This document shows, piece after piece, positions 28,481 through 57,785 of a DNA stretch of 64,000 nt. Numbering within the stretch: position 1 is the stretch's first letter; the number at the start of each line of letters is the position of its first letter. The notes under the pieces are model-generated. The model saw only the letters and a list, made by a program, of their open reading frames with translations, made no database searches and had not been told where the DNA came from. Made by a program: the position numbers and the translations under genes. The stretch is from Burkholderiaceae bacterium (GTDB lineage Bacteria; Pseudomonadota; Gammaproteobacteria; Burkholderiales; Burkholderiaceae): assembly GCA_947448695.1 (NCBI GenBank), contig CANFOL010000006.1:1-64000 (forward strand). Direction: 5' to 3'.

Positions 28481-28494
28481 AACTTATTACCTTT

Positions 28495-34269: not shown

Positions 34270-34300
34270 TTATTTCTCCCATTTATCAATCTAAATTTAA

Positions 34301-34651: not shown

Positions 34652-34716
34652 CTTTCAATTTCCTTAACGTTCAATTATTTTAAAAATTACTCCGTGCAAT
34701 ATCATTTCTATTTACA

Positions 34717-36291
34717 TCAAACTCCGTAAGCTCCTCCACCCGCAGTTTCCATTAAGACTAAATCTCCAGGTTGTAAAGATCTTGGTTCCGTAGGATCAAC
34801 ATCCACACCATTAATCACTAAACGCCCTTGTAATCCACCGCCTCCACCAGCAAGTCCAGATGGAACAGATTTAAGTTGAGTCATTAAAAACGAAGCCGTA
34901 ACACTTTTAGCTTCCTTCAGTAGTTCAAATTCAAAACTAATTCCATCTCCTCCATTATGTATTCCTCGACCACCACTATTGCGACGTATTTCTCTGCGAA
35001 GGACCCTAATTGGTGCAGAACTTTCCATTACCTCAACTGGAGTATTTCCTAAATTACCAGGAAATGACATTGCTGAAAAACCTGCTCTACGAGCAGTTGC
35101 GCCTTGGCCCGCATTTAAAAAATTGACGACTGCAAATCTCTTTCCTTGCCACTCACCAGACATTGTCATCGAAGAATTTGGAGACCCGCCTGCCCAAACT
35201 TTATCAGGCAATACTTCAGCTAGAGCTTTAAAAACAGCCGCTGGAAGTAAATGCCCAATTGCACTCCGACCGCCAGATGCAGCAGGATAGGTGGGATTAA
35301 ATAATGATCCTAGTGGCGCAGAAGAAGTAAACGGCATAAAGCAGCCTTCGTTGTTTGGAATATCTGCACACAACAAAGCTTTTAACCCGTATACCGTGTA
35401 AGCAAATGTATAAATTGGAACTACATTTACTGCACGTGCAATCTGTGGGCTAGATCCAGTAAAGTCAATGTGGATGCTGTCGCCTTGAACATCTAATTGG
35501 CATTGAATAATGAGTGGTTCTTCAAATCCATCATGTTGAACGGTAGAACGATAAATACCATCTGGTATTTTTCGAATTGCATCTCGCATTGCTTTTTCAG
35601 AGCGCTTTCGTAATTCCGCGCCTAGAATTTTTAGATCAACGACCTGTAATAAATCCTGTAATCGTTGGGACATCATTTTACAAGCGGAAACTTGCGCCCA
35701 AATATCCCCCATACCTTGATCAGGCACGCGAATATTTTGAGTAATCATTTCTATTAGAACCTGATTTGGCTCTCCCGCATCAAGCAGCTTCATCATTGGA
35801 ATCTGAAGCCCCTCTTCATAGATCTCCCGAGAACTATTACTTCGTAATTTGCCACCTATATCTGGAAGGTGTGAAACAACTGCAGCAAATGCAACTAACT
35901 TATCATGATGAAATATAGGTCTTACCGTTGTTACATCATGAATATGTCCAGAACCCTTCCATGGGTCATTCGTTATAAAAACATCTCCAGAAACCATTGT
36001 CTCTGGTGGATACTTATCTAAAAAGTGCCGAACTGTGGCTGGTAAACAACCAATAAATCCAGGCAAACTCATCGTCGATTGCGCTAAAGAGCGACCTTCC
36101 ACATCAGTCAATACAATCGCAAAATCGTTTCCATCTCGAACCAAGGTAGAAAAACAAGTTCGTACAAAGGCTGCTGACGCCTCATCAACAACACTAATTA
36201 ATCTCTTCCATAAGATTTCGAGCTCAATCGAACTTAAATGTTGCGAATGTTGGACGTCTTTATGGGAGTTCAGTTCATTTAATCGATTCAT
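34717..36291 (-). CDS. hyuB: Hydantoinase B/oxoprolinase-family subunit
   Basis: The 524-residue protein is a HyuB-type subunit. Hallmarks are AFVRTCFSTLVRDGNDFAI, GDVFITNDPWKGSGHIHDVTTVRPIF, NPTYPAASGGRSAIGHLL and the glycine-rich GLAGGGGGLQGR. With HyuA it forms an ATP-dependent amide or lactam hydrolase (5-oxoprolinase, N-methylhydantoinase, caprolactamase) or a related carboxylase. The gene follows hyuA with no gap. The ring type it opens is not evident, but the adjacent molybdenum hydroxylase could supply a cyclic amide. Confidence 0.9.
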   Translation of the reverse strand: MNRLNELNSHKDVQHSQHLSSIELEILWKRLISVVDEASAAFVRTCFSTLVRDGNDFAIVLTDVEGRSLAQSTMSLPGFIGCLPATVRHFLDKYPPETMVSGDVFITNDPWKGSGHIHDVTTVRPIFHHDKLVAFAAVVSHLPDIGGKLRSNSSREIYEEGLQIPMMKLLDAGEPNQVLIEMITQNIRVPDQGMGDIWAQVSACKMMSQRLQDLLQVVDLKILGAELRKRSEKAMRDAIRKIPDGIYRSTVQHDGFEEPLIIQCQLDVQGDSIHIDFTGSSPQIARAVNVVPIYTFAYTVYGLKALLCADIPNNEGCFMPFTSSAPLGSLFNPTYPAASGGRSAIGHLLPAAVFKALAEVLPDKVWAGGSPNSSMTMSGEWQGKRFAVVNFLNAGQGATARRAGFSAMSFPGNLGNTPVEVMESSAPIRVLRREIRRNSGGRGIHNGGDGISFEFELLKEAKSVTASFLMTQLKSVPSGLAGGGGGLQGRLVINGVDVDPTEPRSLQPGDLVLMETAGGGAYGV

Positions 36292-38455: not shown

Positions 38456-39868
38456 TCAATATGCAATCGTAATTAAACGCTCTTCAGTCATTTCACGAGT
38501 AGCATAGGCAGGTCCTTCACGGCCAAAACCACTATTTTTTACACCTCCAAATGGCATAACATCTGCACGGGCGCTAGAAGCTTCATTAATATGAATACCG
38601 CCAAAACTTAACTTTTTAGCTGTCTGAAAAGCAGTAGAAAGGTTACTTGTGAATAGGCCTACAGCCAAGCCAAACGGACTATCATTAGCACGCATGACAG
38701 CTTCATCAATATGATCAAACTCTAAAATACTAATCACAGGAGCAAATATTTCCTCACAATAAACGCGCATTTGATCTTTAACATTAATCAGAATTGTGGG
38801 TTCCATCACATTACCAACACAGGTCCCACCTGTGAGTAATTGAGCGCCAGACTCAATTGCTTCATTGACAAATGACATCGCTCTCATCGCATGAGCATGG
38901 CTTATCATAGGGCCAATCATAGTTGCTGGATCAGCTGGATCTCCCGCTTTAGCTAATTTTGCTGCAGCAATCAATTTTGGAATAAACGTTGCTGAAATTC
39001 GGCGATCAACCAATAATTTTTGCACTGACGTACAAACCTGTCCCGCTTTACGAAAACCTGCATTGATAATTTTAGGGATTGCCATATCAATATCTGCATC
39101 ATGACAAACAATCGTACTAGCGATACTGCCAAGCTCTAGTTGGAGTCCTCGTAACCCAGCCGCTTTTTGAATCTCAAGTCCAACCCGCGTACTTCCCGTG
39201 AATGCATAATAAGCAATTCTTTGATCAAGTAATAATTGCCGTCCAATCGTTTCTCCAGGTCCATTCACCAAAGCTAATAATGAAGGTGGTAAACCTGCAT
39301 CAATTAATATTTTGAAAAGTTCTATGGAAGTTAATGGTGTGATTTCTGAAGGCTTCAAAACAACTGCATTTCCACCTGCCAATGCAGGTCCTACTTTATG
39401 CGCAACGGTATTGAGTGGCGAATTAAAAGGCGTGATTGCGCAAATCACACCACGTGGCATTCTTAATGTGTATCCCATACGGTTTTTCATTCCAGAAGCG
39501 ACCTCCATTGGAATTAATTCTCCATTGAGGTGTTTGGCAGCTTCAGCAGATAATTCAAGGGTTTGCACACAACGTCGTACTTCATTTTCAGCATCTGGCA
39601 AGGTAAACCCAGCCTCATTTTTCATCAGCTCCGATAAAATACTGATCCGTTCTTTTGTTAATCGTGATGCTTGCATGAGGATCTGATAACGATCATAGGG
39701 GCTTAAATGAGAAGATTCAAAACCCTGTAAAGCTCCATCAATGGCCTCTGTGACTTGATGAATTGATGCAACGGCCATTTGACCATACTCTTTTTCACTG
39801 TATTTGTCTTTTAAAACTTGTACTGATTCACCATCAACCCATTGACCTTTAATAAGAAGTTTAGACAT
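38456..39868 (-). CDS. NAD(P)-dependent aldehyde dehydrogenase
   Basis: The 470-residue protein is an ALDH-superfamily enzyme. It has ITPFNSPLNTVAHKVGPALAGGNAVVLKPSE, the cofactor loop FTGSTRVG, the general-base Glu in LQLELGS and the nucleophile Cys in KAGQVCTSVQ. It has no signal peptide. It follows the two-subunit decarboxylase by 11 bases, so the aldehyde made by decarboxylation of a 2-oxo acid is its likely substrate. Lactaldehyde, succinate-semialdehyde and sulfoacetaldehyde types share these motifs and cannot be separated here. Confidence 0.9.
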   Translation of the reverse strand: MSKLLIKGQWVDGESVQVLKDKYSEKEYGQMAVASIHQVTEAIDGALQGFESSHLSPYDRYQILMQASRLTKERISILSELMKNEAGFTLPDAENEVRRCVQTLELSAEAAKHLNGELIPMEVASGMKNRMGYTLRMPRGVICAITPFNSPLNTVAHKVGPALAGGNAVVLKPSEITPLTSIELFKILIDAGLPPSLLALVNGPGETIGRQLLLDQRIAYYAFTGSTRVGLEIQKAAGLRGLQLELGSIASTIVCHDADIDMAIPKIINAGFRKAGQVCTSVQKLLVDRRISATFIPKLIAAAKLAKAGDPADPATMIGPMISHAHAMRAMSFVNEAIESGAQLLTGGTCVGNVMEPTILINVKDQMRVYCEEIFAPVISILEFDHIDEAVMRANDSPFGLAVGLFTSNLSTAFQTAKKLSFGGIHINEASSARADVMPFGGVKNSGFGREGPAYATREMTEERLITIAY

Positions 39869-39879
39869 ATCAGTTTCTC

Positions 39880-40494
39880 TTATTTGTTTAAAGATAAGGC
39901 TTGCATAAACCCTAAACGTATCTTCACAGGATCACGATCTGTGGAAGCTATTGGGGTTTTATCATCAATTCGGGTTGCTATAAAATGCGGTCCATCCTCA
40001 GTCAAAGCTGCATCAATTAATTGTTCAAACTGTGCCTCATCTTTTGCCCAACAGCTTTTAGTGATGCCAGAGCCTTGCGCAATACTAACTAAATCAACGC
40101 ACGAATTAGTCAAGGTTGCTTGCTTTCCAGTAATTTGATACATACCATTATCAAAAATAATCATGGTGAGATTTTTGATGGCAGATCTTGCAACGGTTCC
40201 CAATGCTCCCAACTGCATTAAAAGGGAACCATCCCCCTCTAAAGCAAAGACTCTGCGCTCAGGTTGAGCTAAGGCAACACCAAAGGCAATTGGAATAGTC
40301 AAGCCCATACTACCTAACATATAGAAATTTTCAGGTCGTTGACCATTCGCCCAAAGATCGAAATTATTATTACCAATACCACCAATCACAGCTTCTTTGG
40401 CATGCAATTTTGAAACAAGTCTCTTCGTTAAATCAAACCGATTCATGACCAGAGCGTTTTCGCGTGAATTAGATAGTAGATTTAAATTAGTCAT
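39880..40494 (-). CDS. TPP-dependent 2-oxo acid decarboxylase, beta (TPP-binding) subunit
   Basis: The 204-residue protein carries the C-terminal TPP half: EAVIGGIGNNNFDLW, MGLTIPIAFGVALAQPERRVFALEGDGSLLMQLG with the GDG...N motif closing in IIFDNGMYQITG. It resembles the beta subunit of sulfopyruvate decarboxylase (ComE) and phosphonopyruvate decarboxylase. The alpha subunit lies two bases upstream. Whether the oxo acid carries sulfonate, phosphonate or a plain side chain cannot be told from motifs. Confidence 0.85.
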   Translation of the reverse strand: MTNLNLLSNSRENALVMNRFDLTKRLVSKLHAKEAVIGGIGNNNFDLWANGQRPENFYMLGSMGLTIPIAFGVALAQPERRVFALEGDGSLLMQLGALGTVARSAIKNLTMIIFDNGMYQITGKQATLTNSCVDLVSIAQGSGITKSCWAKDEAQFEQLIDAALTEDGPHFIATRIDDKTPIASTDRDPVKIRLGFMQALSLNK

Positions 40495-40496
40495 AT

Positions 40497-41039
40497 TCAG
40501 TTTTGCGCAGATCGTTTAGTTAAAAGAGGTGACAAAATCATTGCCGCTGGCGCCTGTGTAGCAAAAGCTTGCTTAATCATATTGTCAACAATAAATTCCA
40601 CATCATGAAGTCTTTCAATTGCATAATTTTCAATTCCTAATGTATTCAGAACAGGCCGCATCGTTCTACAAACAATTGCCTGACCAACCTGAAACTCCCC
40701 TAAAGTTCCTCGCTCTGAAATCATCATCAACACTGGGATCTGAAATGGAACTGCTAAAGAAGCAAGAATATTGGCCAAAGTAGCAAACCCACTTGTTTGC
40801 ATTAAAGTAATACCTCGTAATCCAGCCATATAACTTCCAGCAATAATGCCAATTGCCTCCTCTTCGCGAGCTGGGGCAATTACCGTAAAGTATGGGTCAG
40901 CATGTAATGCTTTTATTAATGGGGCTAATACTTTATCTGGAACATACGTAATTAAAGATACGTCATTACTCTTCAGAACACGCAATACGATTTCATACCA
41001 GGTTTCTTGTTGAGTATTAGAGGATTTTTCAGTAGTCAT
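40497..41039 (-). CDS. TPP-dependent 2-oxo acid decarboxylase, alpha (PYR) subunit
   Basis: The 180-residue protein is the pyrimidine-binding half, with the conserved Glu in PAREEEAIGIIAGSYMAG, then LMQTSGFATLANILASL and the MMISERGTLGEFQVGQ segment shared with ComD-type sulfopyruvate decarboxylases. It pairs with the beta subunit to bind TPP at the interface. Being split into two genes separates it from one-chain decarboxylases such as PPD. Confidence 0.84.
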   Translation of the reverse strand: MTTEKSSNTQQETWYEIVLRVLKSNDVSLITYVPDKVLAPLIKALHADPYFTVIAPAREEEAIGIIAGSYMAGLRGITLMQTSGFATLANILASLAVPFQIPVLMMISERGTLGEFQVGQAIVCRTMRPVLNTLGIENYAIERLHDVEFIVDNMIKQAFATQAPAAMILSPLLTKRSAQN

Positions 41040-44235: not shown

Positions 44236-45144
44236 TTAACCGAGCTTTTTAATGGTTTCCATCAAAACATCTAAAATTCGTTGAGTATTCGGTGAAAATG
44301 AGCGAAGGTGTCTTGTAATAAGGCATATTTCACGTTGAATCACCGGCTCGGTTAGCTCTGAAAATAAAAATTCCTGCATGGGACCTGCTTTAGCTGCCAA
44401 AGAAGGTAGTACGGAAATCTTCCCACTCAACCTTAGCATGGCATATAGAGAAGTTGTACTTGAAGCTTGATCATGGGGATCTGCGTTTTTCCCAAATGAA
44501 ATTTCTGGATAAGTTTCAAGCAAGGAGCCTATCCCTGTATCTGAAGTAAGACCTATATATGGGTGATTTGCCAGATCCGCCCACTTTAAGGGCCGATTTA
44601 TTTTAGCTAAGACGTGATCATGGGGCATTACAACCCCAAAGGTATCATGAAGCACGGGCCGGTAATCTAATTCAGGATAGTTAAGAAGCCGACTGGTTAA
44701 TCCAAAATCAACTTCACCATCAAGTACTGCACGCTCAATTTTTGCTGAACCTGCATCTTGGATTGAAATGTTAACGTCAGGATATTGTTGCCGAAATGTA
44801 AGTAAGGCTGGAGATAGAATATGTACAGCCATAGAAGGTGCCGCTGCAATCCGAATTAAGCCTTGCTGACTTTTTGAAATCGCCTGTAAGTCATTCAGTG
44901 CATTATCAAAATCACGAACAATTTTTTCAGCTACTGGTTGAAAATTGATAGCATCTTCAGTCAACTCCACCCTTCTAGTCGAACGCTCAAAGAGCTTTAG
45001 TCCAATCTCTTCCTCGAATTGTTGAATAGTTGCGGTTAACGTAGATTGGGTTTGAAACAATCTAGCCGAGGCTAAGGTAAATGACCCAGTTTTTGCAACA
45101 GCTAAAAATGAACGCAAATGACGTAAGCTTATTTTTCTTACCAT
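44236..45144 (-). CDS. LysR-family transcriptional regulator
   Basis: The 302-residue protein has the winged helix-turn-helix LRHLRSFLAVAKTGSFTLASARLFQTQSTLTATIQQFEEEIGLKLFERSTR, followed by a periplasmic-binding-like effector domain (LIRIAAAPSMAVHILSPALL). It is transcribed in the same direction as the downstream operon, with 182 bases between, so it may activate that operon by binding in this gap. The effector is presumably the pathway substrate or an intermediate. Confidence 0.92.
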   Translation of the reverse strand: MVRKISLRHLRSFLAVAKTGSFTLASARLFQTQSTLTATIQQFEEEIGLKLFERSTRRVELTEDAINFQPVAEKIVRDFDNALNDLQAISKSQQGLIRIAAAPSMAVHILSPALLTFRQQYPDVNISIQDAGSAKIERAVLDGEVDFGLTSRLLNYPELDYRPVLHDTFGVVMPHDHVLAKINRPLKWADLANHPYIGLTSDTGIGSLLETYPEISFGKNADPHDQASSTTSLYAMLRLSGKISVLPSLAAKAGPMQEFLFSELTEPVIQREICLITRHLRSFSPNTQRILDVLMETIKKLG

Positions 45145-45495: not shown

Positions 45496-46896
45496 CTATT
45501 CAACAAAGAAAGAATGTATCCATTCATTTGTTTTTAAAGGTACATTAGGATTTTTTTCTAACTGCTCGCCTAAGGCCACAACTGAATTTCTTAAGTTTGG
45601 TGCAAAATCCTTAGCTAGAAGATCAATCTTTTCTAATACAGTATGACGCTCTAATGGCCTAGAAGAACTTCCCAAAGCTGCTTCACAAAACTCAGAAATC
45701 TTATCCCCATTTTTTAACTCAACAGTAACTTTTGCGGGACGATCATACGGCCAAGGACGTACGTCTTTCATTTCTTGCATCAATACTTTATTTCTATTTG
45801 AGGCAATGAGAGTATTAGACATACTTTCATGCAAAAAATTCTCTGTTGCTTTGGCGCCGTTAACAATAGTGGCAGCTACTGCATGAGGTATTGAAAATTT
45901 TGCAGCCAAAGTTGTTACAGGATTTACATTATTAAAGTTCATCCCCATTTTTGAAACTTCTATCAATACAGAATGAATCTCATCTCCACCTCGAAGATTT
46001 GGATATTCATTTAAGATTTTTTCTAATGCTTCCATCGATGCATGTGCATGATGACATGACCCATAAAGCTTATGATAACCAGCCGTAATGGTCCAATCGG
46101 ACCCTAAGTCCATACAAAGATGCTCTGGCTTTGAATTTGCACCAAAACCAATTTGATAAATATCATATGGGCCAGAAGGTGTCCCATAAATATTGGCTTG
46201 TGCCATCTGGCAGGCAAAGTAACCCAACCAAGCCCCAGCTGCTGGCCAAGCATTCCGAATCAATGCGCCTTCAATTGGGTGACTGTATGGACCTGGCGAA
46301 ACCATCGTACAAGCACCAGTTAAGGTATTCATGAAAAGTGTTTTATCAAAACGCATCAAGCTAGCATATCCAGCTGCTGCACAAACAACATTAAACACAC
46401 CGTGGGGATGTAACCTAGGTAAAGTTTCAGGCCATGCTCTTGCGAAACGCGTGCCGACTTCATAAGCAACAACTACAGCCCTTAACATCTCTTGAATAGA
46501 TAAATCATTCGCTTGCGCTGCTGCTAATATAAGTGGTTGGCTAAGCGCCCCCGGATGAACAGCAGTTCGGGTATATCCATCGTCAAGCTCATTCCAAGTA
46601 ATAGCTAACCCATTAGCAAGTGCCGCATTCATCAAAGAAGTCTTGGGTCCATTCTTTCGAAAAACTGTTGCTTCCTCACTGCTTTTTTGATTCAACAATT
46701 GACTATGATAAGTATTTACTTCAGGCTCATTCGAAGCTGATAGCGTTGCGGCAATGTTATCACCCAGAATCAATACTGCTTGTTGTAAAACTTGATTAGG
46801 GATATCTTCATAGCGAAGGCTTGTTGCCCAATCTGATAATTTTGATAAATTTTCTGCAACGCTATTTTTAATAGCGGTTTGATCTACAGCATCCAT
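45496..46896 (-). CDS. MmgE/PrpD-family protein
   Basis: The 466-residue protein matches the MmgE/PrpD fold: SDWATSLRYEDIPNQVLQQAVLILGDNIAATLSA, then TWNELDDGYTRTAVHPGALSQPLILAAA with the conserved His-Pro-Gly, and the YGSCHHAHASMEAL helix. Known members are 2-methylcitrate dehydratase, iminodisuccinate epimerase-like enzymes and cis-aconitate decarboxylase. It follows the CoxL-like subunit after two bases, so it likely acts on a product of that pathway rather than on methylcitrate. Confidence 0.87.
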   Translation of the reverse strand: MDAVDQTAIKNSVAENLSKLSDWATSLRYEDIPNQVLQQAVLILGDNIAATLSASNEPEVNTYHSQLLNQKSSEEATVFRKNGPKTSLMNAALANGLAITWNELDDGYTRTAVHPGALSQPLILAAAQANDLSIQEMLRAVVVAYEVGTRFARAWPETLPRLHPHGVFNVVCAAAGYASLMRFDKTLFMNTLTGACTMVSPGPYSHPIEGALIRNAWPAAGAWLGYFACQMAQANIYGTPSGPYDIYQIGFGANSKPEHLCMDLGSDWTITAGYHKLYGSCHHAHASMEALEKILNEYPNLRGGDEIHSVLIEVSKMGMNFNNVNPVTTLAAKFSIPHAVAATIVNGAKATENFLHESMSNTLIASNRNKVLMQEMKDVRPWPYDRPAKVTVELKNGDKISEFCEAALGSSSRPLERHTVLEKIDLLAKDFAPNLRNSVVALGEQLEKNPNVPLKTNEWIHSFFVE

Positions 46897-46898
46897 AA

Positions 46899-49283
46899 TT
46901 AATCTTTTCTAAGAGCGTGCCAAATTTTATTCGAGGTAAATGGCATCTCTACACCCCTTACACCAACAGAGCCTAAAGCATCCATCATTGCACTAGTAAT
47001 TGCCGCAGGCGCGCCAATGGTTCCTGACTCACCACATCCCTTAACTCCTAAAGGGTTATGGGTACATGGCTGAGTTTCATCTGCTTCAGAAATAAAATCT
47101 GGCAATATATCTGCTCTTGGCATCGCATAATCCATAAATGAACCTGTCATGATCTGTCCAGACTCTGGTTCATAAATAGCACTTTCAAATAAAGCTTGAC
47201 CAATTCCTTGAGCAATAGCTCCATGAACTTGCCCTTCAACCACCATTGGATTAATCACTGTACCGACGTCATCAATGGCAATGTAAGAAAGCAATTGTGT
47301 AACACCATTTTGTGGATTAATTTCTATTTCGCAAACTTGCGCGCCATTTGACCAAGTCAAATTTGGTGGATCAAAAAAAGCATTTTCATGCAAAACAGGC
47401 TCCATCCCAGGCGGTAAATTATGTGCATAAGTAGCTGCACGGGATACTTGATACCAGTCTAGTTTTTCTTTTGTTTTTTTACTTACGAAATAGCCTAAGC
47501 TATCAATGATCTGATGTTCAATATCGGCAACATCACTACCAAGAAGGTGTGCCGCAAGTAATTTGGACTTTTCAAGAATTTTGTTGCAAGCCATTGTGAT
47601 AGCTCCACCTGCAATAACCATTGATCTTGACCCAAAGGTTCCAGTTCCATAAGGGACTCTTCCAGTATCGCCTTCTACTAACTCAATCATCGATAAAGGT
47701 AGGCCTATCTTTGAAGCGATGACCTGCGGAAATGTTGTCGCATGTGCTTGACCATGACTATGCGTGCCACACATTAAAAGAATACTGCCATCAGCTGAAA
47801 CACGAATATCGGCTGAATCAAAAAACCCGGCTCTTGCGCCAAACATACCGGCATATTTAGACGGCGCGACCCCAGAACTTTCGAGGAAATAACAAACACC
47901 AAAACCGCGTATCATGCCATTCTGCTTTGATTGTGCACGGCGTTTCTCAAAACCAGCAAAGTCAGAAACCTCAAGAGCTCTATCAAAAAGACGTTGGAAA
48001 TCGCCACTGTCATAAATTGGTCCTAACGGTGTGGAGTAAGGCATCTCACTCGACTTGATGAAATTTTTACGACGTAATTCCATACGATCCATACCGGTTT
48101 GCACTGCAGCTTCTTCAATCAATCGCTCTAAAACAAAACACGCTTCAGGTCTTCCTGCACCACGATACGCATCCGTTGGAACCGTATTGGTAAACATTGC
48201 ATCGACCTCTGCAAACACTGCAGGAATTTTATAAGGACCCGATAAAACAGCCGTGTAAACCGTAGTTGGAACTGCAGCACCGACAGTAGATATATATGCC
48301 CCAACAGCAGCAAAGGTTTTAACGCGAACAGCTAATATAAAACCATTTTCATCCAAAGCCATTTCAGCAGTGGTCATGTGATCACGCGCTTGATAATCAC
48401 TAATAAATGCTTCACTACGCGTTGAAGTCCACTTGATGGTTTTCTTTAGTTTCTTACAGGCCCAAGCCAAAATAGTTTCTTCAGGATACAACTTACCCTT
48501 TGTACCAAAACCTCCGCCAACATCTGGCGCAATCACGCGGATTGAATTTTCCGGTAAATTTAATTGCTCTGATGTGAGCTTACGAATATGATGCGGAACT
48601 TGAGTGGCCGACCAAAGCGTGAGCTCATGTCCATCCTCTCCAAGTGAAGGGGATACTTGGGCTAATACAGCTCTTGGTTCAATTGCTGCACAAATAATTC
48701 GATGATTTTTTATTTCTACACGAATCCGATGCGTTGCCTTTTCAAAGGCGGCATCGACTGGTTCCTTAGCGCCACGGTGAAACCTTACACACAAATTATT
48801 AGGTGCTTGTGCATGAAGTTGCGGGGCATTTGCAAGTGCGGCTTTCTCAACATTAACCACAGAGTCTAATACGTCATAGTCCACCTCGATCACTTCAGAA
48901 GCATCAATCGCTTGATGAACTGTCTTGGCAATAACCATAGCAACTATTTCACCAACATGGCGCACACGATCCGTAGTGATGGAATAACGCGGAGGCTCGT
49001 TCATTTGAGATCCATTTGCGCCAGGAATCATCCACAGCGGCGTCATTTTTCCAACGCCGTCTTTTAACAAATCTTGTCCAGTAAATACTGCAATGACCCC
49101 TGGAGAATTTTGTGCAACAGAAACATCGATGCTCTTAATTAGTGCATGTGCATGAGGCGATCTTAAAAAAGCACAGTAATATGTGTTTTCGGGAAGAATA
49201 TCTGAAACAAATTGTCCCCGTCCTTTAAGTAAGCGGTTATCTTCTCTTCTTAAAATTGCTTTACCAATTCCTTCTGTATGCAT
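46899..49283 (-). CDS. Molybdenum hydroxylase large subunit (form II CoxL-like), second set
   Basis: From ATG 49283 the protein is 794 residues. A GTG 17 codons upstream would add a stretch unlike the family. It has IGKAILRREDNRLLKGRGQFVSDI, PDVGGGFGTKGKLYPEE, DAYRGAGRPEACFVLERL and the catalytic Glu in KGCGESGTIGAPAAI. AYRGAGR rather than AYRCSFR rules out CO dehydrogenase. Its small subunits are absent on this strand and are encoded divergently at 51981-53268 behind an ABC importer, an unusual split arrangement. Confidence 0.9.
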   Translation of the reverse strand: MHTEGIGKAILRREDNRLLKGRGQFVSDILPENTYYCAFLRSPHAHALIKSIDVSVAQNSPGVIAVFTGQDLLKDGVGKMTPLWMIPGANGSQMNEPPRYSITTDRVRHVGEIVAMVIAKTVHQAIDASEVIEVDYDVLDSVVNVEKAALANAPQLHAQAPNNLCVRFHRGAKEPVDAAFEKATHRIRVEIKNHRIICAAIEPRAVLAQVSPSLGEDGHELTLWSATQVPHHIRKLTSEQLNLPENSIRVIAPDVGGGFGTKGKLYPEETILAWACKKLKKTIKWTSTRSEAFISDYQARDHMTTAEMALDENGFILAVRVKTFAAVGAYISTVGAAVPTTVYTAVLSGPYKIPAVFAEVDAMFTNTVPTDAYRGAGRPEACFVLERLIEEAAVQTGMDRMELRRKNFIKSSEMPYSTPLGPIYDSGDFQRLFDRALEVSDFAGFEKRRAQSKQNGMIRGFGVCYFLESSGVAPSKYAGMFGARAGFFDSADIRVSADGSILLMCGTHSHGQAHATTFPQVIASKIGLPLSMIELVEGDTGRVPYGTGTFGSRSMVIAGGAITMACNKILEKSKLLAAHLLGSDVADIEHQIIDSLGYFVSKKTKEKLDWYQVSRAATYAHNLPPGMEPVLHENAFFDPPNLTWSNGAQVCEIEINPQNGVTQLLSYIAIDDVGTVINPMVVEGQVHGAIAQGIGQALFESAIYEPESGQIMTGSFMDYAMPRADILPDFISEADETQPCTHNPLGVKGCGESGTIGAPAAITSAMMDALGSVGVRGVEMPFTSNKIWHALRKD

Positions 49284-49406
49284 GAAATTCTTTCTAATAA
49301 AAAAACTAGGGGTATGTATTAATTTAATGAGCACAACTTTTAATTTAATGTTATCTTATTTCTTAAATCCTAACAAATAATTCAAATTTTATAAAACGGA
49401 GACGTT

Positions 49407-50375
49407 ATGAAACTCATAAAAAATAGTTTAATTGCTTTAATCATTTTGTCATTGGGTATTTTTTCTTCCTTAAGCATGGCTCAACAGAAAATGAGAATGG
49501 GTCTATTTATTGCATCCTCCGCTCTTCCATACTTTATTGCTAAAGAGCGTGGTTATTTTGCAGCAGAGGGTCTGGATGTTGAGGGAGTACCTTTAGCAAC
49601 TCAACCATTAGTTGTTCAAGGAATCGTTACTGGAGATTTAGACGCTGCCTCCAATCTTTTGTCTTTAGAAGGCGCAAACATTAACGCGTTAAGACCAGAC
49701 ACATTAAAGTATATTTCTTTAAATTGCCAAAATGTGAAATACCAACTTGAGGCTTATGTGGTTCCTGTCAATAGCCCAATTAAAACCTTAGCAGAATTAA
49801 AAGGTAAACGAATCATGTCTGCGCCTGGCCCAGGAAATCTTTTTGTGGCAAAAGGAGTTCTGAAGGGTGCTGGTTTAGATGAAAAAGATTATCAAATGCA
49901 AGAACAACAAATGAGTGTTCACATTGGTGGTATGCAGTCTGGTCAATTTGATGCTGCTTACACACTTGAGCCAATCGTAAGTATGATGGTTTCTCAAGGA
50001 GTTGGTCGTAAGTTAGAAAGCGGTGTTATTGCTAAATATATGTTGGGTAGACCTGATGCCTGCGCCGTTCTTGGCGGTGGAGTACTTAGCTCTAAATTTA
50101 TCAAAGAGAATCCTCAGGCAGCAGAGCGATTTGCTAGAGCTTGGTCAAAAGCATTGAATGATGGTAACAATGACCCTAAGGCCCGTGACCTTCTGGTAAA
50201 GCATATGAATACATCTGCCAGCATCGCTCAAACCGTGCCTTTGTCTTATTACAAAATGGCTCGTGATTTGAGTACCCAAGACATTGCCGACTTTCAAAAC
50301 TTGATCAATCAGGCAACAACATACGGTTTAGTAAAAGAAAAAATTGATGCTAAATCATTTTTAAAAGTATATTAA
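49407..50375 (+). CDS. NMT1/THI5-like periplasmic substrate-binding protein
   Basis: The 322-residue protein has a signal peptide (to SMA-QQ, about residue 25) and an NMT1-like domain (MRMGLFIASSALPYFIAKERGYFAAEGLDVEGV, LKGKRIMSAPGPGNLF). It is the receptor of the importer formed with the next two genes. AACGGAGAC precedes the ATG. Its operon also encodes molybdenum hydroxylase subunits and a ring-opening amidohydrolase, so a nitrogen heterocycle is the likely ligand. Confidence 0.88.
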   Translation: MKLIKNSLIALIILSLGIFSSLSMAQQKMRMGLFIASSALPYFIAKERGYFAAEGLDVEGVPLATQPLVVQGIVTGDLDAASNLLSLEGANINALRPDTLKYISLNCQNVKYQLEAYVVPVNSPIKTLAELKGKRIMSAPGPGNLFVAKGVLKGAGLDEKDYQMQEQQMSVHIGGMQSGQFDAAYTLEPIVSMMVSQGVGRKLESGVIAKYMLGRPDACAVLGGGVLSSKFIKENPQAAERFARAWSKALNDGNNDPKARDLLVKHMNTSASIAQTVPLSYYKMARDLSTQDIADFQNLINQATTYGLVKEKIDAKSFLKVY

Positions 50376-50381
50376 TATTCA

Positions 50382-51155
50382 ATGAACGCAATACCTTATA
50401 AAAGAGTTTTACAGCCCCTGACGCCATTAGTTGGGGCTATTGCCTTCCTCTTAATTTGGTGGCTGTGTACCACTTTAAAATTGATTGATCCATTCTTATT
50501 GCCAACTCCACAAGCTGCCGCTAAAGCTATGTGGACTGGTCTATCAAATGGGACCCTATCCCTAGACATGATCATCACTATTCGTAGAACGATTTATGCC
50601 TTTTTAATTGCGGTACTTATCTGTGTGCCCCTTGGACTTATTTTGGGTAGCTCAGAACGCCTTTATAGTTCCTGCGAATTTGTGATTGATTTTTTTAGAT
50701 CAACCCCTGCTTCAGCTTTATTTCCTCTTTTTTTAGTTATCTTAGGAGTTGGGGAAAATACAAAAATTGCCGTAGCAGCATTTGGGGCTGGTCTTTTAAT
50801 TTTATTTAATACCGCCTATGGGGTAATGAATGCCAGGAAAGTAAGGCAAGCAGCAGCTCGTGTCATGGGAGCATCAAGTCTGAAAATTCTTTATGGCGTA
50901 ACACTCCTCGAATCTCTTCCGCAAACATTTGTTGGAATGCGCTCAGGAATCTCATTTTCACTAGTGATCGTGATTGTTGCTGAAATGTTTATTGGCTCTA
51001 CGGATGGATTGGGTCAACGCGTCATTAATGCTCAAATGATTTTTAATATGCCTGAAATGTATGCCACTATTTTTAGTGCAGGGGCATTAGGCTACGGTTT
51101 AAATCTTCTCTTCATTCTTGCGGAAAAACACTTTGTCCACTGGGGTGGAAAATAA
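50382..51155 (+). CDS. NitT/TauT-type ABC transporter permease
   Basis: The 257-residue protein has about six membrane segments and the cytoplasmic loop RVMGASSLKILYGVTLLESLPQTFVGMRSG that docks on the ATPase. SSERLYSSCEFVIDFFRSTPASALFPLFLVI is typical of the SsuC/TauC group. It starts six bases after the binding-protein gene. Confidence 0.9.
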   Translation: MNAIPYKRVLQPLTPLVGAIAFLLIWWLCTTLKLIDPFLLPTPQAAAKAMWTGLSNGTLSLDMIITIRRTIYAFLIAVLICVPLGLILGSSERLYSSCEFVIDFFRSTPASALFPLFLVILGVGENTKIAVAAFGAGLLILFNTAYGVMNARKVRQAAARVMGASSLKILYGVTLLESLPQTFVGMRSGISFSLVIVIVAEMFIGSTDGLGQRVINAQMIFNMPEMYATIFSAGALGYGLNLLFILAEKHFVHWGGK

Positions 51156-51185
51156 ACGTGTATTTCCAAATTTAATTAATTTATT

Positions 51186-51947
51186 ATGACGGCACATATC
51201 CAAATTCGTGGGTTGAGTAAAACTTTTGCTGGACAGGTACTGTACTCAAACTTTAATCTCGATTTTCCTCATGGGAAAATAACTTCAATCTTTGGTCCAA
51301 ATGGTTGCGGGAAATCCACCCTGATTAATATGATTTCTGGGCTAACGCCAATGGATGCAGGAGAGGTACTCTTTGATGGTAAGACTTTAGCTCAAACCGT
51401 TATAGGATATGTCTTCCAAAATTATCGAGACGCTCTTTTCCCATGGAAAAAAGCGATTGATAATATTAAATACCCTCTACAACTTGCTAATAAATCGTCT
51501 GGCGAAATCGAGTCTAGGACTCAGGAGTTAATTGAATCTTTCGATGTTCGTTTTGATTTAAATAGATATCCCTATGAACTATCAGGGGGTCAGCAGCAAT
51601 TGATTTCTATTATGAGGGCGCTCGCCCCTAACCCGGAAGTGCTTTTTTTAGATGAGCCATTTTCCGCACTAGATTATGAAATGACTCTGTTTATGCGCGA
51701 TAAACTGCAGGCAATTTTTGAAGCCACAAAAACAACCATGCTTCTAGTCTCTCATGATCTTGATGAGGCTGTGTATTTATCAGATCACATTCTAATGCTG
51801 ACTCGTCGACCTACTCAAATTGCACGCGAAATAGAATTTACAGCACCAAGACCACGGACCCCTACAACTTTAACTTCAGAACTATTTAATCAAGTCAAAG
51901 GTCAGTGTCTTGAAATCTTCCAAAAAGAAATCAAAGTTATAGATTAG
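51186..51947 (+). CDS. NitT/TauT-type ABC transporter ATPase
   Basis: The 253-residue ATPase has Walker A GPNGCGKST, Q-loop YVFQNYRDALFPWKK, signature LSGGQQQ, Walker B LFLDEPFSALD and the switch VSHDLDEA. With the permease it forms the importer. It shares the family, but not close identity, with the importer at 16.2-18.8 kb, so the two were probably acquired for different substrates. Confidence 0.93.
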   Translation: MTAHIQIRGLSKTFAGQVLYSNFNLDFPHGKITSIFGPNGCGKSTLINMISGLTPMDAGEVLFDGKTLAQTVIGYVFQNYRDALFPWKKAIDNIKYPLQLANKSSGEIESRTQELIESFDVRFDLNRYPYELSGGQQQLISIMRALAPNPEVLFLDEPFSALDYEMTLFMRDKLQAIFEATKTTMLLVSHDLDEAVYLSDHILMLTRRPTQIAREIEFTAPRPRTPTTLTSELFNQVKGQCLEIFQKEIKVID

Positions 51948-51980
51948 AATTATTTAATATTTTAAAAAAGGAGATGATCT

Positions 51981-52457
51981 ATGAGCATCCAAGTATCGAT
52001 GATCATTAATGGCCAATCAGTACAGCATGAAGTTGAAGAGCGAACACTCTTAGTTAATTTTATCCGAGACACATGTCGCTTAACAGGAACCCATATTGGG
52101 TGTGATACCGCACAATGTGGTGCTTGTACGATTCATTTAAATGGTAGAGCAATCAAGAGTTGTAGCATTTTGGCTATGCAAGCAGAAGGTGCAACAATTA
52201 CAACGATTGAAGGTATTTCCCCCGATGATCAATTGCATCCGATGCAAGAAGCCTTTAAAACACACCATGGCCTGCAATGTGGTTATTGCACTCCAGGAAT
52301 GATTATGAGTGCGATTGATCTTGTCAACAACTTTCCTAACCCGAGTAAAGAACTCATCCGTGAACAACTAGATGGGAACTTATGTCGTTGTACGGGCTAT
52401 CACAATATCGTTATAGCGATTCAAGAGGGGGCCAAAGTAATGAGCCCTACTAACTAA
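51981..52457 (+). CDS. Molybdenum hydroxylase iron-sulfur subunit, second set
   Basis: The 158-residue protein has both [2Fe-2S] sets: [23 protein letters not shown], and [14 protein letters not shown] with [12 protein letters not shown]. It follows the ABC ATPase by 33 bases with a good AAAGGAG site. It should partner the FAD subunit downstream and the large subunit encoded divergently at 46899-49283, since no other large subunit lies in this operon. Confidence 0.92.
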
Positions 52458-52473
52458 ATTTTCGGAGCGATTT

Positions 52474-53268
52474 ATGTACCCATTTTCGTTTCATCAGACT
52501 ACAAATGTTGCGCAATCTGTATCTTTAAAAAAAGAACATACGGAAGCAAAATATATCGCAGGTGGACAAAGTTTAATTGGTGTGATGAAGCTCAGGCTTG
52601 ATAAGCCTTCCCAATTAATTAACTTAGGTTCTATTCCTGAACTTTCAGGAATCTGTGTCGAAGGTAAGACAATCACTATTGGTGCAATGACTAGACATGC
52701 TCAAGTTGCTGCATCAAAAGATGTGAAAGCTTGTATTCCAGGTCTAGCTCAACTCGCAGGTCTTATTGCGGATCGCATGGTACGTAATATGGGAACTATT
52801 GGAGGCTCTGTTGCTAATAATGACCCTTCTGCAGATTACCCCGCTGGCTTACTGGGATTAAATGCAACTATCATTACCAATCAACGTGAAATTAAGGCTG
52901 ATGATTTTTTTAAGGGCATGTTTGAAACAGCTCTTGAAGCAAGCGAGTTAATCCAATCAATCCGTTTTACTGCGCCCATTAAATCAGCTTACGCTAAATT
53001 TAAACACCCTGCCTCAAGATACGCTGTCGTAGGAGTCTTTGTCGCGCAATTTGCTGATGAGGTACGTGTCGCTGTCACTGGAGCTGGCTCATCTGTTTTT
53101 AGACTTACTGAAGTAGAGAAAGCTCTTTCTAGTAATTTTTCTGCTCAAGCATTAGAAGCAGTTCATATTTCTGCTGATGGCCTAAATTCAGATTTCTTTG
53201 CGGACTCAACTTATAGAGCCCATTTAATTAAATTAATGGCAATTCAAGCTGTTAACCAAGCAAAATAA
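52474..53268 (+). CDS. Molybdenum hydroxylase FAD subunit, second set
   Basis: The 264-residue protein has [24 protein letters not shown] and [22 protein letters not shown], the two FAD-binding loops, then the C-terminal domain around [29 protein letters not shown]. It sits between the iron-sulfur subunit and the ring-opening amidohydrolase, which suggests hydroxylation and ring opening in sequence. Confidence 0.92.
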
Positions 53269-53285
53269 ACTTCACAGGATTTACT

Positions 53286-54380
53286 ATGTCAATTGATGTT
53301 GTTAAAGTTGAAATTAAAAGTGTTTCAGATGCCTCAGGACTTCTCCAACATATCGAGTCTGGAAGATTTAAAGCAGATGACGTCATAGCCGTCATTGGCA
53401 AAACCGAGGGTAATGGTGGTGTAAATGACTTTACAAGAATCTTATCTGATCATGCGTTTCGAAACGTATTATTGAAGCATGGCACCCGCACTGAGGAACA
53501 GATTCGAGAAATTCCGATGGTCTGGTCCGGTGGTTGTGATGGGGTCATTACGCCACATGCCACTATTTTTGCGCAAGTATCTGATACATCAAATACCAAT
53601 GAAAGTCGATTAGTCATTGGAACAGCCCTTAGCCCGCGCATTTATCCTGAAGATATCGGTCGCTTGTCAATGGTAGAAAAAGTTCGGCAAGGCGTACTTC
53701 TTGCGATGCAAAATGCTGGCATTGAAGACCCAAAAGATGTTCATTATGTTCAAACCAAAACACCCCTACTGACCATTGAGTCTGTTCTGGATGCCAAATC
53801 TAGAGGAAAAACTTTAGCCTGTGAAGTGCATGATTCAATGGGCGTTTCTAATGGCACTACTGCCTTAGGAATTGCTGCGGCTCTTGGGGAAATTCCAATG
53901 CCAACTGAAGAAGACATCTGTGAAAATCACGCCTTGTTTTCTTCTGTAGCGTCATGCTCCTCTGGCGTTGAATTAGATTTCGCTCAAATTGTTTTACTAG
54001 GAAATAAATCAGGTGCAGGGGGCCATTTTCGTATCGGTCACGGCATTATGCGCGACGCCATTGATATCGATGGGATTTATGATGCTATTCGATCTGCAGG
54101 TTTAACTTTACCGGATCGTCCTAGAGCAAGTGACTTAAACGGCAAACTGGTTAATTGCTTTATTAAATGTGAGGCTGATCAAACAGGTAAGCTTCGTGGT
54201 CGTCGACAAATTATGTTAGATGACTCTGACGTACACCATCACCGACACTCAAAAGCAGCTGTGGGCGGGGTTGCTGCTGCCGCGATTGGTGATCCAGCTG
54301 TCTTTGTATCCGTTGATGCCATGCACCAAGGACCACGAGGTGGTGGCCCTGTAATTGCGATTGTTGACTTAGGTAAGTAA
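53286..54380 (+). CDS. Ring-opening amidohydrolase (barbiturase/cyanuric acid hydrolase family)
   Basis: The 364-residue protein belongs to the AtzD/TrzD/barbiturase family, which opens cyclic imide rings using three Ser-Lys pairs. Hallmarks are [55 protein letters not shown] and [15 protein letters not shown]. Known substrates are barbiturate (giving ureidomalonate) and cyanuric acid (giving carboxybiuret). It follows molybdenum hydroxylase subunits, the arrangement expected for oxidative uracil breakdown through barbiturate. Motifs alone cannot separate the two activities. Confidence 0.88.
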
Positions 54381-54388
54381 AAGTTTCT

Positions 54389-54868
54389 TTATTGATAGAC
54401 TTTAGGGTCAAAGAAGCTCGTCCCCGCAATATAGCGTTTACCATCTGACATATCTGGGATTGGGCCCTTCTCGATTTTTCCTTCAAAGGTTAATTCGAGT
54501 TGAACCCCACTTGGATCATATACAAATAGTTGCCAAATTGTCGTGTTAGGAACCAAAAACTCACGATAAGGTAATTTCATTTCAATAAATTTTTCACGGT
54601 ACTCATGATATCCCGTGCAAGAAAAAGAAATATGGTCAATTGCCGCAGTACCTAATGGCGTCACACCATCAGCTCCCAATGCTGGTCCACCAGCATAACA
54701 ATGCAATATCGCTTGCCCACCAGGAATCGGGGCTGCTAGCCAAGCCCCAGGGAATCCAAAATCAGGGCGATAAATATCAATTAAACCTAAGACCTTAATA
54801 TAAAAATCTTTAGTTGCCTCTAAATTATTCGTTTTAACTGCGATATGGAACAAACCATTTGTAATCAT
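54389..54868 (-). CDS. VOC-superfamily (glyoxalase-like) protein
   Basis: The 159-residue protein has two beta-alpha-beta-beta-beta units with likely metal residues His in GLFHIAVKTNN, His in IDHISFSCTG and Glu in VQLELTFEG. YDPSG is the usual VOC turn. Members include lyases, isomerases and extradiol-type dioxygenases. It is convergent with the ring-opening amidohydrolase, and its pathway partner is the AtzH-like gene 13 bases upstream. Confidence 0.8.
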   Translation of the reverse strand: MITNGLFHIAVKTNNLEATKDFYIKVLGLIDIYRPDFGFPGAWLAAPIPGGQAILHCYAGGPALGADGVTPLGTAAIDHISFSCTGYHEYREKFIEMKLPYREFLVPNTTIWQLFVYDPSGVQLELTFEGKIEKGPIPDMSDGKRYIAGTSFFDPKVYQ

Positions 54869-54881
54869 AATTTCTTTCTAT

Positions 54882-55265
54882 TTATATTTTGTCGATCAAA
54901 CTAACATGAGCAGAAACAATTCTCCAACCTTCAGGGGTTCTTACCCATGTTTGAGATTGACGCCCCAATTTCCCTGGCACAGTATCTCTTTCAAATAAGG
55001 TATTAGCTGTAGCTAGGTCATTTCCAAACGTGGTGATCACTGTTCTACTAATACTTCTTAATAAACCTTTTGATGGTCTAGCGGCTCGAAATGCTGCGAT
55101 TTCATCAAACCCATATAAATTTTCATTCATGCCATAACGAATGACCAACGGATTATTCCAAAAAGAATTATCTAAAACATCAATCTTATTGTGAATCAAA
55201 GCGTCTTCATATTGATCAAAAAGGGCCTTTACTTCTGCATGAACGTTTGGAAGGTTAATTTGCAT
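54882..55265 (-). CDS. AtzH/HpxZ-like protein (SnoaL/NTF2 fold)
   Basis: The 127-residue protein fits the AtzH-like (DUF3225) family: FDQYEDALIHNKIDVLDNSFWNNPLVIRYGMNENLYGFDEIAAFRAAR and the end QSQTWVRTPEGWRIVSAHVS. Known members are HpxZ, linked to oxalurate (purine) catabolism, and AtzH, linked to cyanuric acid breakdown. Its presence beside a cyanuric acid hydrolase/barbiturase-family gene supports an N-carboxyl or ureido acid intermediate in this pathway. Confidence 0.8.
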   Translation of the reverse strand: MQINLPNVHAEVKALFDQYEDALIHNKIDVLDNSFWNNPLVIRYGMNENLYGFDEIAAFRAARPSKGLLRSISRTVITTFGNDLATANTLFERDTVPGKLGRQSQTWVRTPEGWRIVSAHVSLIDKI

Positions 55266-55707: not shown

Positions 55708-57024
55708 ATGATCAAATATCTCAAGCGTGGTAAAGATGTTCAAATTCGCTTAGACGAGGATGTCAAAGTCCGCCAAACTGTTGAGAACATTATTAAAGAT
55801 GTCGAAGTAAGGGGTGACGAAGCCGTCAGGGAATATAGTAAAAAATTCGATAATTGGGATCCATCTGATTTCAGATTAAGTCAGGCCGAAATTGAAAAAG
55901 CTCGCAAATCTCTTTCCGCGCGCGAAATCGAAGATATTACCTTTGCACAAAAACAAGTTCGTAACTTTGCACAAATTCAACGGGACTCGATGAAAGATGT
56001 CGAAGTTGAAACCTATCCTGGTGTCATTTTGGGTCACAAACATATACCCGTCAATGCGGTCGGATGCTATATTCCTGGTGGTAAATACCCACTTTTAGCT
56101 TCTGCGCACATGAGTGTACTTACGGCTAAAGTTGCTGGGGTGAAACGTATTATTTCAACAGCTCCCCCATTCCAAGGGGTACCTCATCCAGCGATCGTAA
56201 CAGCGATGTCGATGGCTGGGGCTGATGAAATATATGTCCTAGGCGGAGTTCAAGCAGTTGTTGCAATGGCAGTAGGCACGCAAAGTATCGCACCTGTCGA
56301 TATGCTTGTTGGACCTGGAAATATGTTTGTTGCTGAAGCGAAGCGTCAACTCTATGGACGTGTGGGTATCGATTTATTTGCAGGCCCAACCGAAACTTTA
56401 GTGATTGCTGATGAGTCTGTTGACGGCGAATTATGCGCGGTAGACCTTTTAGGACAAGCAGAACACGGGCCAACATCTCCAGCGATTCTTCTTACCAACA
56501 GTGAAAAGCTTGCAAGAGAAACTATTGCGGAAGTTGAGCGCCAATTAGCCATCATCCCAACAGCCGCAATCGCAAAACAAAGCTGGGCTGATTATGGTGA
56601 AGTTATTGTCTGTGATACTTATGAAGAAATGCTACAAAAAGCGGATGAATTAGCCTTTGAGCACGTTCAAGTTATGACAAAAGATCCTGACTATTTCCTT
56701 AACAACATGACGAATTTTGGCGCCCTATTCCTTGGCCCAAGAACGAACGTTAGCTTTGGCGACAAGGTTATTGGCACGAACCATACTTTACCGACCAATC
56801 GTAATGCGCGTTATACCGGTGGACTTTGGGTTGGAAAATTTCTCAAGACCTGCACCTATCAAAGAGTGCTCACCGATGAGGCAAGTACAACAATGGGTGA
56901 GTACTGCTCTCGCTTATGTCATATGGAAAACTTTGCAGGTCACGGAGAACAAGCGAATATTCGTGTGCGTCGCTATGGTAACCGTCCTGATCTCGCCTGG
57001 TATGAACCAGTAGCTGCAAAATAA
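55708..57024 (+). CDS. Histidinol-dehydrogenase-like NAD enzyme, possibly HpsN-type
   Basis: The 438-residue protein has the HisD fold with [61 protein letters not shown] and GTNHTLPT. The catalytic-region text is FEHVQVM and KFLKTCTYQ instead of the PEHLEI and DFLRR forms of biosynthetic HisD, and no other his gene is near. Paralogues such as HpsN oxidise sulfopropanediol, and others act on unrelated diols, so a catabolic polyol or amino alcohol dehydrogenase is inferred. An SDR gene begins at its stop codon. Confidence 0.78.
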
Positions 57025-57785
57025 TGACTATGCGAGCCCCTAACTTTAGAGTAGATGGTCAGCGTGCACTGGTAACGGGAGGTAGTCGTGGTATCGGTTA
57101 TTGTGCGGCACTTGCCTTAGCACAAGCTGGTGCACAAGTGACAATAGTTGCAAGATCCCTTGACACACTGGTGTCCTCCCAACAGGAATTACTTGCCGAA
57201 GGTTTTACCTGTGAGATTGTACAACTCGATGTCACCGATCCTGTAGCGGTTGATCAAGCTCTTGTGGCTCGTGAACCGTTTCAAATTTTAGTGAACAATG
57301 CGGGTACGAATCGCCCAAAGCATCTCATTGATGTTAAAAATGAGGATATCGACGCCGTTTTTGATCTCAATATCAAGGCTGCTTTTTACGTTACCCGTAA
57401 AGTAACGCAGCAACTTTTAGCAGCAAAACTTCCCGGCTCCATTATTAATATCTCTTCCCAAATGGGAGTGGTTGGCAGTCCAAGACGTACTTTATATTGT
57501 GCCAGTAAACATGCTTTAGAAGGCATGACCAAAGCCTTAGCTTGGGAGCTTGGAGAAGCAAACATTCGTGTCAATACGATTTGTCCTACCTTTATTGAAA
57601 CAGATATGACAGCCCCCATGTTTGCTGACGCGACTTTTAAAAAATGGGTTATTGAAAAAATTGCTCTTGGACGACTTGGTCAACTCGAAGAAATTATGGG
57701 CGCAATTGTGTTTTTAGCAAGCCCCGCTTCTAGTCTGATGACGGGAAGTGCTTTAATGCTCGATGGAGGCTGGTCGGCCGCATAA
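57024..57785 (+). CDS. Short-chain dehydrogenase/reductase
   Basis: The 253-residue protein is a classical SDR with VTGGSRGIGYCAA, LVNNAGTNRP, NISSQMGVVG and YCASKHALEG (catalytic Tyr and Lys), and the tail LMTGSALMLDGGWSAA. An Arg after the second strand (VARSLDT) suggests NADP(H). It overlaps the stop of the HisD-like gene by one base, so the two are co-translated and probably act on linked alcohol and carbonyl intermediates. Confidence 0.9.
   Translation: MTMRAPNFRVDGQRALVTGGSRGIGYCAALALAQAGAQVTIVARSLDTLVSSQQELLAEGFTCEIVQLDVTDPVAVDQALVAREPFQILVNNAGTNRPKHLIDVKNEDIDAVFDLNIKAAFYVTRKVTQQLLAAKLPGSIINISSQMGVVGSPRRTLYCASKHALEGMTKALAWELGEANIRVNTICPTFIETDMTAPMFADATFKKWVIEKIALGRLGQLEEIMGAIVFLASPASSLMTGSALMLDGGWSAA

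Follow-up and report, generated by a model that had tools for sequence, protein, structure and literature searches.

A ten-gene unit of a Burkholderiaceae genome combining a barbiturase-type ring opener with a three-subunit molybdenum hydroxylase: a candidate variant of the oxidative pyrimidine route

We analysed a 64,000-nucleotide stretch of contig CANFOL010000006.1 from a Burkholderiaceae bacterium (assembly GCA_947448695.1), hereafter called the window, which has a G+C content of ~40% and belongs to a genome of 2.6 Mb in 70 contigs. Between positions 45496 and 55265, it carries ten genes coding for an ABC importer, a molybdenum hydroxylase, a ring-opening amidohydrolase and three further proteins. 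An earlier examination of the bare sequence (the original prediction) had proposed that they form a route for the oxidative degradation of pyrimidines or related rings. All ten genes were found as follows, f3 denoting another family of the same order.

45496..46896, minus strand: MmgE/PrpD-family protein, 466 aa (Pfam PF03972 and PF19305 above cut-off; 58% identity in three f3 genomes)
46899..49289, minus strand: MoL, molybdenum hydroxylase large subunit, 796 aa (Ald_Xan_dh_C, MoCoBD_1, MoCoBD_2)
49407..50375, plus strand: ABC importer binding protein, NMT1/THI5-like (PF09084)
50382..51155, plus strand: ABC importer permease (PF00528)
51186..51947, plus strand: ABC importer ATPase (PF00005)
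51981..52457, plus strand: 2Fe-2S subunit of the molybdenum hydroxylase (Fer2, Fer2_2; nine Cys)
52474..53268, plus strand: FAD subunit of the molybdenum hydroxylase (FAD_binding_5)
53286..54380, plus strand: Bar, barbiturase-type Toblerone-fold ring-opening amidohydrolase of the AtzD/TrzD family (PF09663)
54389..54868, minus strand: VOC-superfamily protein, 159 aa (PF00903; 67-69% identity in two f3 blocks)
54882..55265, minus strand: HpxZ/AtzH-like NTF2-fold protein, 127 aa (NCBIfam HpxZ, 186.8 bits, cut-off 135)

The genes are separated by 2-33 bp throughout, except for a 117-bp gap between the divergent genes of MoL and the binding protein. The importer, 2Fe-2S subunit, FAD subunit and ring opener are encoded in one plus-strand row from 49407 to 54380 with intergenic gaps of 6-33 bp, 17 bp of which lie between the FAD subunit gene and that of Bar. 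The MmgE/PrpD gene begins 2 bp beyond MoL on the same minus strand, and the VOC and HpxZ genes converge on the end of the unit, 8 bp separating VOC from Bar. The layout given in the original prediction, with its divergent spacer of about 120 bases, was thus borne out. For MoL, the mechanical open reading frame (ORF) has a GTG start 45 bp further upstream.

Bar is barbiturase-type by sequence, as the original prediction had held. It scored 460.3 bits with PF09663 (cut-off 25) and 496.6 bits against the solved barbiturase 5hwe, to which it is 64-65% identical; the best cyanuric acid hydrolase reached only 293.3 bits. In a midpoint-rooted tree of 49 chosen Toblerone-family rows, Bar lies inside a 28-row clade (100/100) that includes 5hwe and stands apart from the cyanuric acid hydrolases, its nearest rows beyond the genus coming from Bradyrhizobium (L020) and Beijerinckiaceae (L024). 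All three Lys-Ser dyads are kept (K39-S81, K158-S225 and K294-S342), and R51 matches Arg54. The source organism of 5hwe is presumably Rhodococcus, and a protein of a Rhodococcus record (L083) is near-identical to it.

According to passages of Peat et al. (2013, PMC3758960), barbiturases form group VI of the Toblerone family and carry, in AtzD numbering, N195, H321, K325, V345 and S/A346 at five specificity positions, where cyanuric acid hydrolases have R195, T321, R325, G345 and G346. The signature of Bar is N, H, K, V, D, i.e. four of the five published barbiturase residues, with Asp at position 346. Among 84 Bar-type rows, this position is Asp in 61, Ala in 14, Ser in six and Gly in two, and it is cut by a contig end in one; the Asp-bearing rows are mostly from Proteobacteria, with some from Acidimicrobiia, Rokubacteria, Acidobacteria and others. 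We do not take Asp-346 as a sign of another substrate, because the Asp-type Bar of Bradyrhizobium L020 stands among pyrimidine- and malonate-type genes. Its neighbours match malonyl-CoA synthase (820.8 bits, cut-off 558) and an NCS2 nucleobase permease (307.8 bits, cut-off 291.8), as well as the Pfam amidase and malonyl-CoA decarboxylase families, and match models of uracil permease, RutG and cytosine deaminase below cut-off. In an excerpt of PMC4051656, the residue of the barbiturase subgroup that corresponds to 195 is a glutamine instead of an asparagine; in our alignment, it is Asn in both 5hwe and Bar, in agreement with PMC3758960 and unlike PMC4051656.

Breakdown of cyanuric acid, an s-triazine, through AtzD-family and AtzH-like genes had also been considered in the original prediction, and it is a highly improbable explanation. 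Bar passes the NCBIfam equivalog model for cyanuric acid amidohydrolase (439.7 bits, cut-off 360), and the HpxZ protein resembles AtzH. Nevertheless, this model does not discriminate, since the f3-type ring opener described below passes it too (453.1 bits), and it would misname the window's Bar. Both the signature, which is not R, T, R, G, G, and the tree speak against Bar being a cyanuric acid hydrolase. Furthermore, none of six amidases scanned in the same genome (the top match, L098, being left out) rose above the AtzE cut-offs, the best reaching 269.1 of 461 bits.

The 2Fe-2S, FAD and molybdenum large subunits are all present, with what we take to be the catalytic Glu motif in the large one (GCGESG at 751), which corresponds to the three-subunit make-up of the xanthine oxidase family. 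The nearest solved chains to MoL are 8uem, 1n5w and 1t3q. Aerobic carbon monoxide (CO) dehydrogenase was considered and rejected: MoL scored 577.9 of 950 and 552.5 of 991.15 bits on the curated CoxL models, and its loop reads AYRGAGR (at 374), that of CO dehydrogenase being AYRCSFR.

MoL orthologues (at least 89% identity) occur in exactly six of 186 genomes of the genus, and Bar occurs in the same six. In all of these genomes, the window's and five others, the ten genes have the same order and relative orientation, and therefore the set is no chance assembly. The co-occurrence and conserved order also support the assignment, made in the original prediction, of the divergent large subunit to the small ones and to Bar. 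The unit of G046, one of the six, is split over two contigs, with the break inside Bar. The flanks of the block differ among the six genomes. With respect to two neighbours present in both, a LysR gene on one side and a HisD homologue on the other, the block of G046 has the opposite orientation to that of the window, although this inversion is deduced from the two contigs and several genes separate the block from these neighbours. Based on it, we set the bounds of the unit at MmgE and HpxZ and excluded the LysR gene (44236-45144). That gene is unsupported as a regulator of the unit, as it keeps its own neighbours in G046 although the unit is inverted. Six genomes may be an undercount, because contigs of two others (G025 and G078) end inside the HpxZ gene. 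A seventh genome, G214, has open genes for HpxZ, VOC, the FAD and 2Fe-2S subunits, the three importer proteins and MmgE; Bar is absent and the large subunit is broken into several frames, so that Bar and an intact MoL are missing together. Among viral contigs, four stretches fitted a pattern, and none encodes a relative.

Outside the window, we collected the best 80 of at least 521 stretches encoding a Bar relative. The counts below follow thresholds of our choosing and are lowered by contig ends, 39 of the 80 loci being at least 19 kb long. One locus, L018, belongs to a genome with the ten-gene block (G247). Binding proteins are encoded in 18 loci (L018 included), HyuA in 18, HyuB in 22, an amidase in 21 and malonyl-CoA decarboxylase in six; AllF is found in 16, AllG in 15, AllH in eight and carbamate kinase in 13. 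Amidase and AllG share no locus (P 0.006, hypergeometric, uncorrected and ignoring kinship). As Bar loci carry one or the other, never both, this suggests that ureidomalonate is split hydrolytically in the amidase loci or phosphorolytically in the AllG loci. An excerpt of PMC11326118 reports that E. coli AllFGH converts oxalurate and phosphate to oxamate and carbamoyl phosphate; by analogy, this chemistry applied to ureidomalonate would yield malonamate and carbamoyl phosphate. The string 'barbitur' is absent from the main text of PMC11326118.

Three observations from these loci deserve mention. AllF lies within 10 kb of a barbiturase gene in L037, L046, L048, L065, L067, L072, L074, L076-L078, L080, L081, L084 and L091-L093, with an AllG-type oxamate carbamoyltransferase in all except L065, and AllH and carbamate kinase in some. 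A HyuA/HyuB pair stands near some barbiturase genes, and in most of the proteobacterial loci with this pair it is 64-84% identical to that of L013. We rejected the window's own HyuA/HyuB genes (34717-38406) as such a pair, as they are just 26-34% identical to those near Bar, with one 40% match to a second HyuA in L023. Lastly, the Rhodococcus locus L083:4338-12736 codes for the Bar near-identical to 5hwe, with an amidase directly 3' of it, uracil phosphoribosyltransferase, and CoA-transferase-like and acyl-CoA carboxyltransferase-like proteins. In Rhodococcus, upp reportedly lies beside bar (Soong, 2002), and the gene row of L083 agrees with this neighbourhood.

We read the ten-gene unit as a catabolic unit that scavenges nitrogen, and perhaps carbon, from a pyrimidine-dione by import, hydroxylation and barbiturase ring opening, and we give this reading a probability of about one half. 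The leading candidates for the substrate are uracil and thymine. The ABC importer would take the ring compound into the cell. The three-subunit molybdenum hydroxylase would then oxygenate a ring carbon adjoining nitrogen, to give barbiturate or a close C5-substituted analogue, which Bar would open to ureidomalonate or a corresponding analogue. The open-chain product would then be processed by HpxZ, VOC and MmgE. It could end as malonate and urea; the genome has a malonyl-CoA decarboxylase and a urease, neither of which is tied to the unit. What the sequences show is the gene content, the placement of Bar among the barbiturases, the conservation of the unit and, in one genome, the combined lack of Bar and of an intact large subunit; each reaction is inferred, most of all the identity of the substrate and whatever follows the opening of the ring. 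The importer resembles those of other Bar loci, its binding protein being 37-46% identical to binding proteins near other Bar genes and its ATPase 57-66% identical to ATPases in 16 of the 79 other loci.

For the step that follows ring opening, HpxZ may be the best candidate of the unit, because oxalurate and ureidomalonate are both ureido acids. HpxZ matches the AtzH structure 6bjt over its whole length (E 2.2e-42) and keeps all eight AtzH residues examined, including Tyr22 and Arg46. Passages of PMC6219798 describe these two residues of AtzH as catalytic, report mutations of six further residues and propose that AtzH is a decarboxylase of 1,3-dicarboxyurea. The nearest solved relative of MmgE is IDS-epimerase, at a remote distance (profile E 6.8e-16). 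A search with the single VOC protein found no solved relative at E 0.001, with weak profile matches only; judging from the superfamily, we assume that H8, H56, H79 and E125 are possible metal ligands.

An amidase of the same genome (L100, contig C20) shares 46% identity with the one next to Bar in the Rhodococcus locus L083. We rejected it as a strict partner of the unit: it occurs in 13 of the 186 genomes (E up to 1e-120), five of them with the unit, and is not found in the sixth, G246. Malonyl-CoA decarboxylase is present as a single copy on contig C33, with an ORF nearby whose sequence resembles a CaiB-type CoA-transferase. The urease genes UreG, UreE, UreC and UreD lie within 23627-29412 of the window, 16-22 kb off the unit; that urea from the unit feeds this urease, as suggested in the original prediction, is unproven.

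Several observations weigh against our reading. The ten-gene unit encodes no amidase for ureidomalonate, no AllG was found in the window's genome, and the known oxidative pyrimidine route has no step for MmgE or VOC. For want of an amidase gene in the unit, the original claim of a full route is unproven. Within the genus, HpxZ at 76-86% identity occurs without Bar in two genomes (G003 and G015). G214 is assembled in 290 contigs, so that its broken large subunit may stem from a misassembly; as for Bar, this genome could have lost it or could never have acquired it. In favour of our reading, 15 of the 80 loci (14 besides L018), from several phyla, encode a molybdenum large subunit no more than 10 kb from Bar, but this is a raw count without a background rate, and some of these genes are 4-9 kb from Bar. 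When 38 large subunits were placed in a tree, MoL of the window fell outside a six-row clade (100/100) of Bar-linked large subunits that spans Proteobacteria, Actinomycetota, Rokubacteria and Acidobacteria. Its own clade of 21 rows includes paralogues of the genus that do not have Bar as a neighbour, and the two large subunits of the Bar locus L071; this tree has a narrow background sample and long branches that come together. As MoL groups apart from the Bar-linked clade, the partnership of Bar with a molybdenum hydroxylase looks to have formed more than once. Molybdenum hydroxylases near Bar are not special to the window. MmgE, VOC and HpxZ are found near Bar in one locus of the 80, L018, and thus the molybdenum pairing recurs while the three extra genes mark the genus.

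The f3 genomes further weaken a plain uracil reading, with the same importer, large subunit and MmgE next to an opener outside both characterized clades. In a sample of 399 genomes of the order, a large subunit at least 60% identical to MoL occurs in seven: those of the window, G122, G171, G320 and G358 (69-71%), and G280 and G363 (60-61%). In the blocks of G122, G171 and G320, it is accompanied by MmgE (58%), binding protein (75-77%), permease (78-79%) and ATPase (77-78%). VOC (67-69%) is present in G122 and G320, and of the f3 blocks only that of G122 yielded the 2Fe-2S (69%) and FAD (59%) subunits. These blocks harbour an AtzD-family gene preceded by an FAD-monooxygenase-like gene (all models below cut-off in G171 and G320; judged from the sequence start in G122 and G280), and in G171 and G320 a CoA-transferase-like gene, below cut-off, follows. 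The f3 opener has the signature R, Q, R, G, G, and its identity is 37-38% with Bar and 42-49% with two cyanuric acid hydrolases. Together with the G280 copy, it forms its own clade (99/99) outside the Bar and cyanuric acid clades, on a long branch under the midpoint root. The members of this clade are L181:4278-5381, L180:7972-9075, L182:4564-5667 and L193, and the FAD-monooxygenase-like gene precedes them in the four genomes seen. In G280, the pair lies near VOC and importer genes, while a different contig carries the large subunit. The importer and large subunit are present in G358, and no AtzD-family gene was found there at E up to 1e-20; in G363, neither an AtzD-family gene nor an importer is beside the large subunit.

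If importer and molybdenum enzyme share a substrate across these genomes, the f3 opener would also be a barbiturase, or the compound would not be plain uracil. It is possible, and we propose it tentatively, that the unit degrades another nitrogen heterocycle, such as a C5-substituted pyrimidine or a purine-derived ring, with importer, molybdenum enzyme, MmgE and VOC as the core and a lineage-specific opener, either the undescribed f3 type or Bar. The f3 blocks, which combine this core with another opener, are consistent with this, and it would accommodate MmgE and VOC, which the uracil route leaves unexplained; an AtzD-family gene is also found in five of the seven large-subunit genomes, compared with 25 of 399 overall (P 1e-5, uncorrected for kinship). 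Nevertheless, Bar has four of the five residues of the barbiturase signature, a near relative of it is surrounded by pyrimidine- and malonate-type genes, and kin of the importer ATPase are encoded near Bar in the 16 loci mentioned above. Of the original prediction, the barbiturase-type opener is supported; uracil as the substrate is unproven, given relatives that use another opener with the same importer and large subunit. A more specific scheme is possible, though less likely than not: an undescribed module of NMT1-type importer, CoxL-type three-subunit molybdenum hydroxylase, MmgE/PrpD and VOC would work with two Toblerone branches, one of them new, the hydroxylase being a uracil/thymine-type dehydrogenase and HpxZ replacing ureidomalonase.

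Alternatively, barbiturate itself might be imported and opened, the molybdenum hydroxylase acting on another substrate and sharing the operon for transport or regulation only. Most importer-bearing Bar loci have no molybdenum large subunit found in the stretch examined, and the window's enzyme is of a separate lineage, in line with this. It is nonetheless improbable, given that MoL and Bar occur in the same six of 186 genomes, that Bar is absent and the large subunit broken together in G214, and that 17 bp separate the FAD subunit gene from Bar.

Other features of the surroundings were noted. In G015, L161:1128-10203 codes for HpxZ (76%) with what reads like a branched-chain-type importer and another molybdenum hydroxylase, barbiturase being absent. 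The window carries a second complete three-subunit molybdenum hydroxylase (29475-33177) adjoining the UreD and HyuB/HyuA genes (28495-38406), a stretch that also has a gene reading like a Bug-type binding protein. At 38456-41039, an aldehyde dehydrogenase is encoded beside two small TPP subunits that look like the alpha and beta subunits of sulfopyruvate decarboxylase; neither reaches the cut-offs of the sulfopyruvate models, and the second one passes PRK06163. On the other side of the unit, a histidinol dehydrogenase homologue (above the hisD cut-off) and an adjacent short-chain dehydrogenase (55708-57785), kept in G046, are possibly a non-histidine dehydrogenase pair.

We know of no gene for either the first or the third step of the oxidative pyrimidine route, and our literature search found no paper on genes for uracil/thymine dehydrogenase or ureidomalonase. 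PMC3961730 and PMC7662398 name barbiturase in their reference lists alone. The unit offers candidate genes for an old route of uracil breakdown, and because molybdenum hydroxylases recur near barbiturase in several phyla, the question of the uracil/thymine dehydrogenase becomes directly testable.

Compared with known systems, Bar shares with the barbiturase 5hwe the fold family, the Lys-Ser dyads and N195/H321/K325/V345, and differs by Asp instead of Ser/Ala at 346; the 5hwe-like Bar of L083 is followed by an amidase, whereas the window's is followed by VOC and HpxZ. The molybdenum hydroxylase has the domain make-up of CoxL-type three-subunit enzymes such as CO dehydrogenase and quinoline 2-oxidoreductase, with separate large, medium and small subunits, but MoL is under every curated cut-off listed and its gene is divergent from the small-subunit genes. 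HpxZ is alike over its full length, with the eight residues kept, to AtzH of Pseudomonas sp. ADP and to HpxZ of oxalurate catabolism; unlike the AtzH system, the unit lacks AtzG and AtzE, and HpxZ sits with Bar. With the oxidative pyrimidine route of uracil dehydrogenase, barbiturase and ureidomalonase, the unit shares barbiturase and a plausible ring hydroxylase; it lacks the ureidomalonate amidase and has the additional MmgE, VOC and HpxZ.

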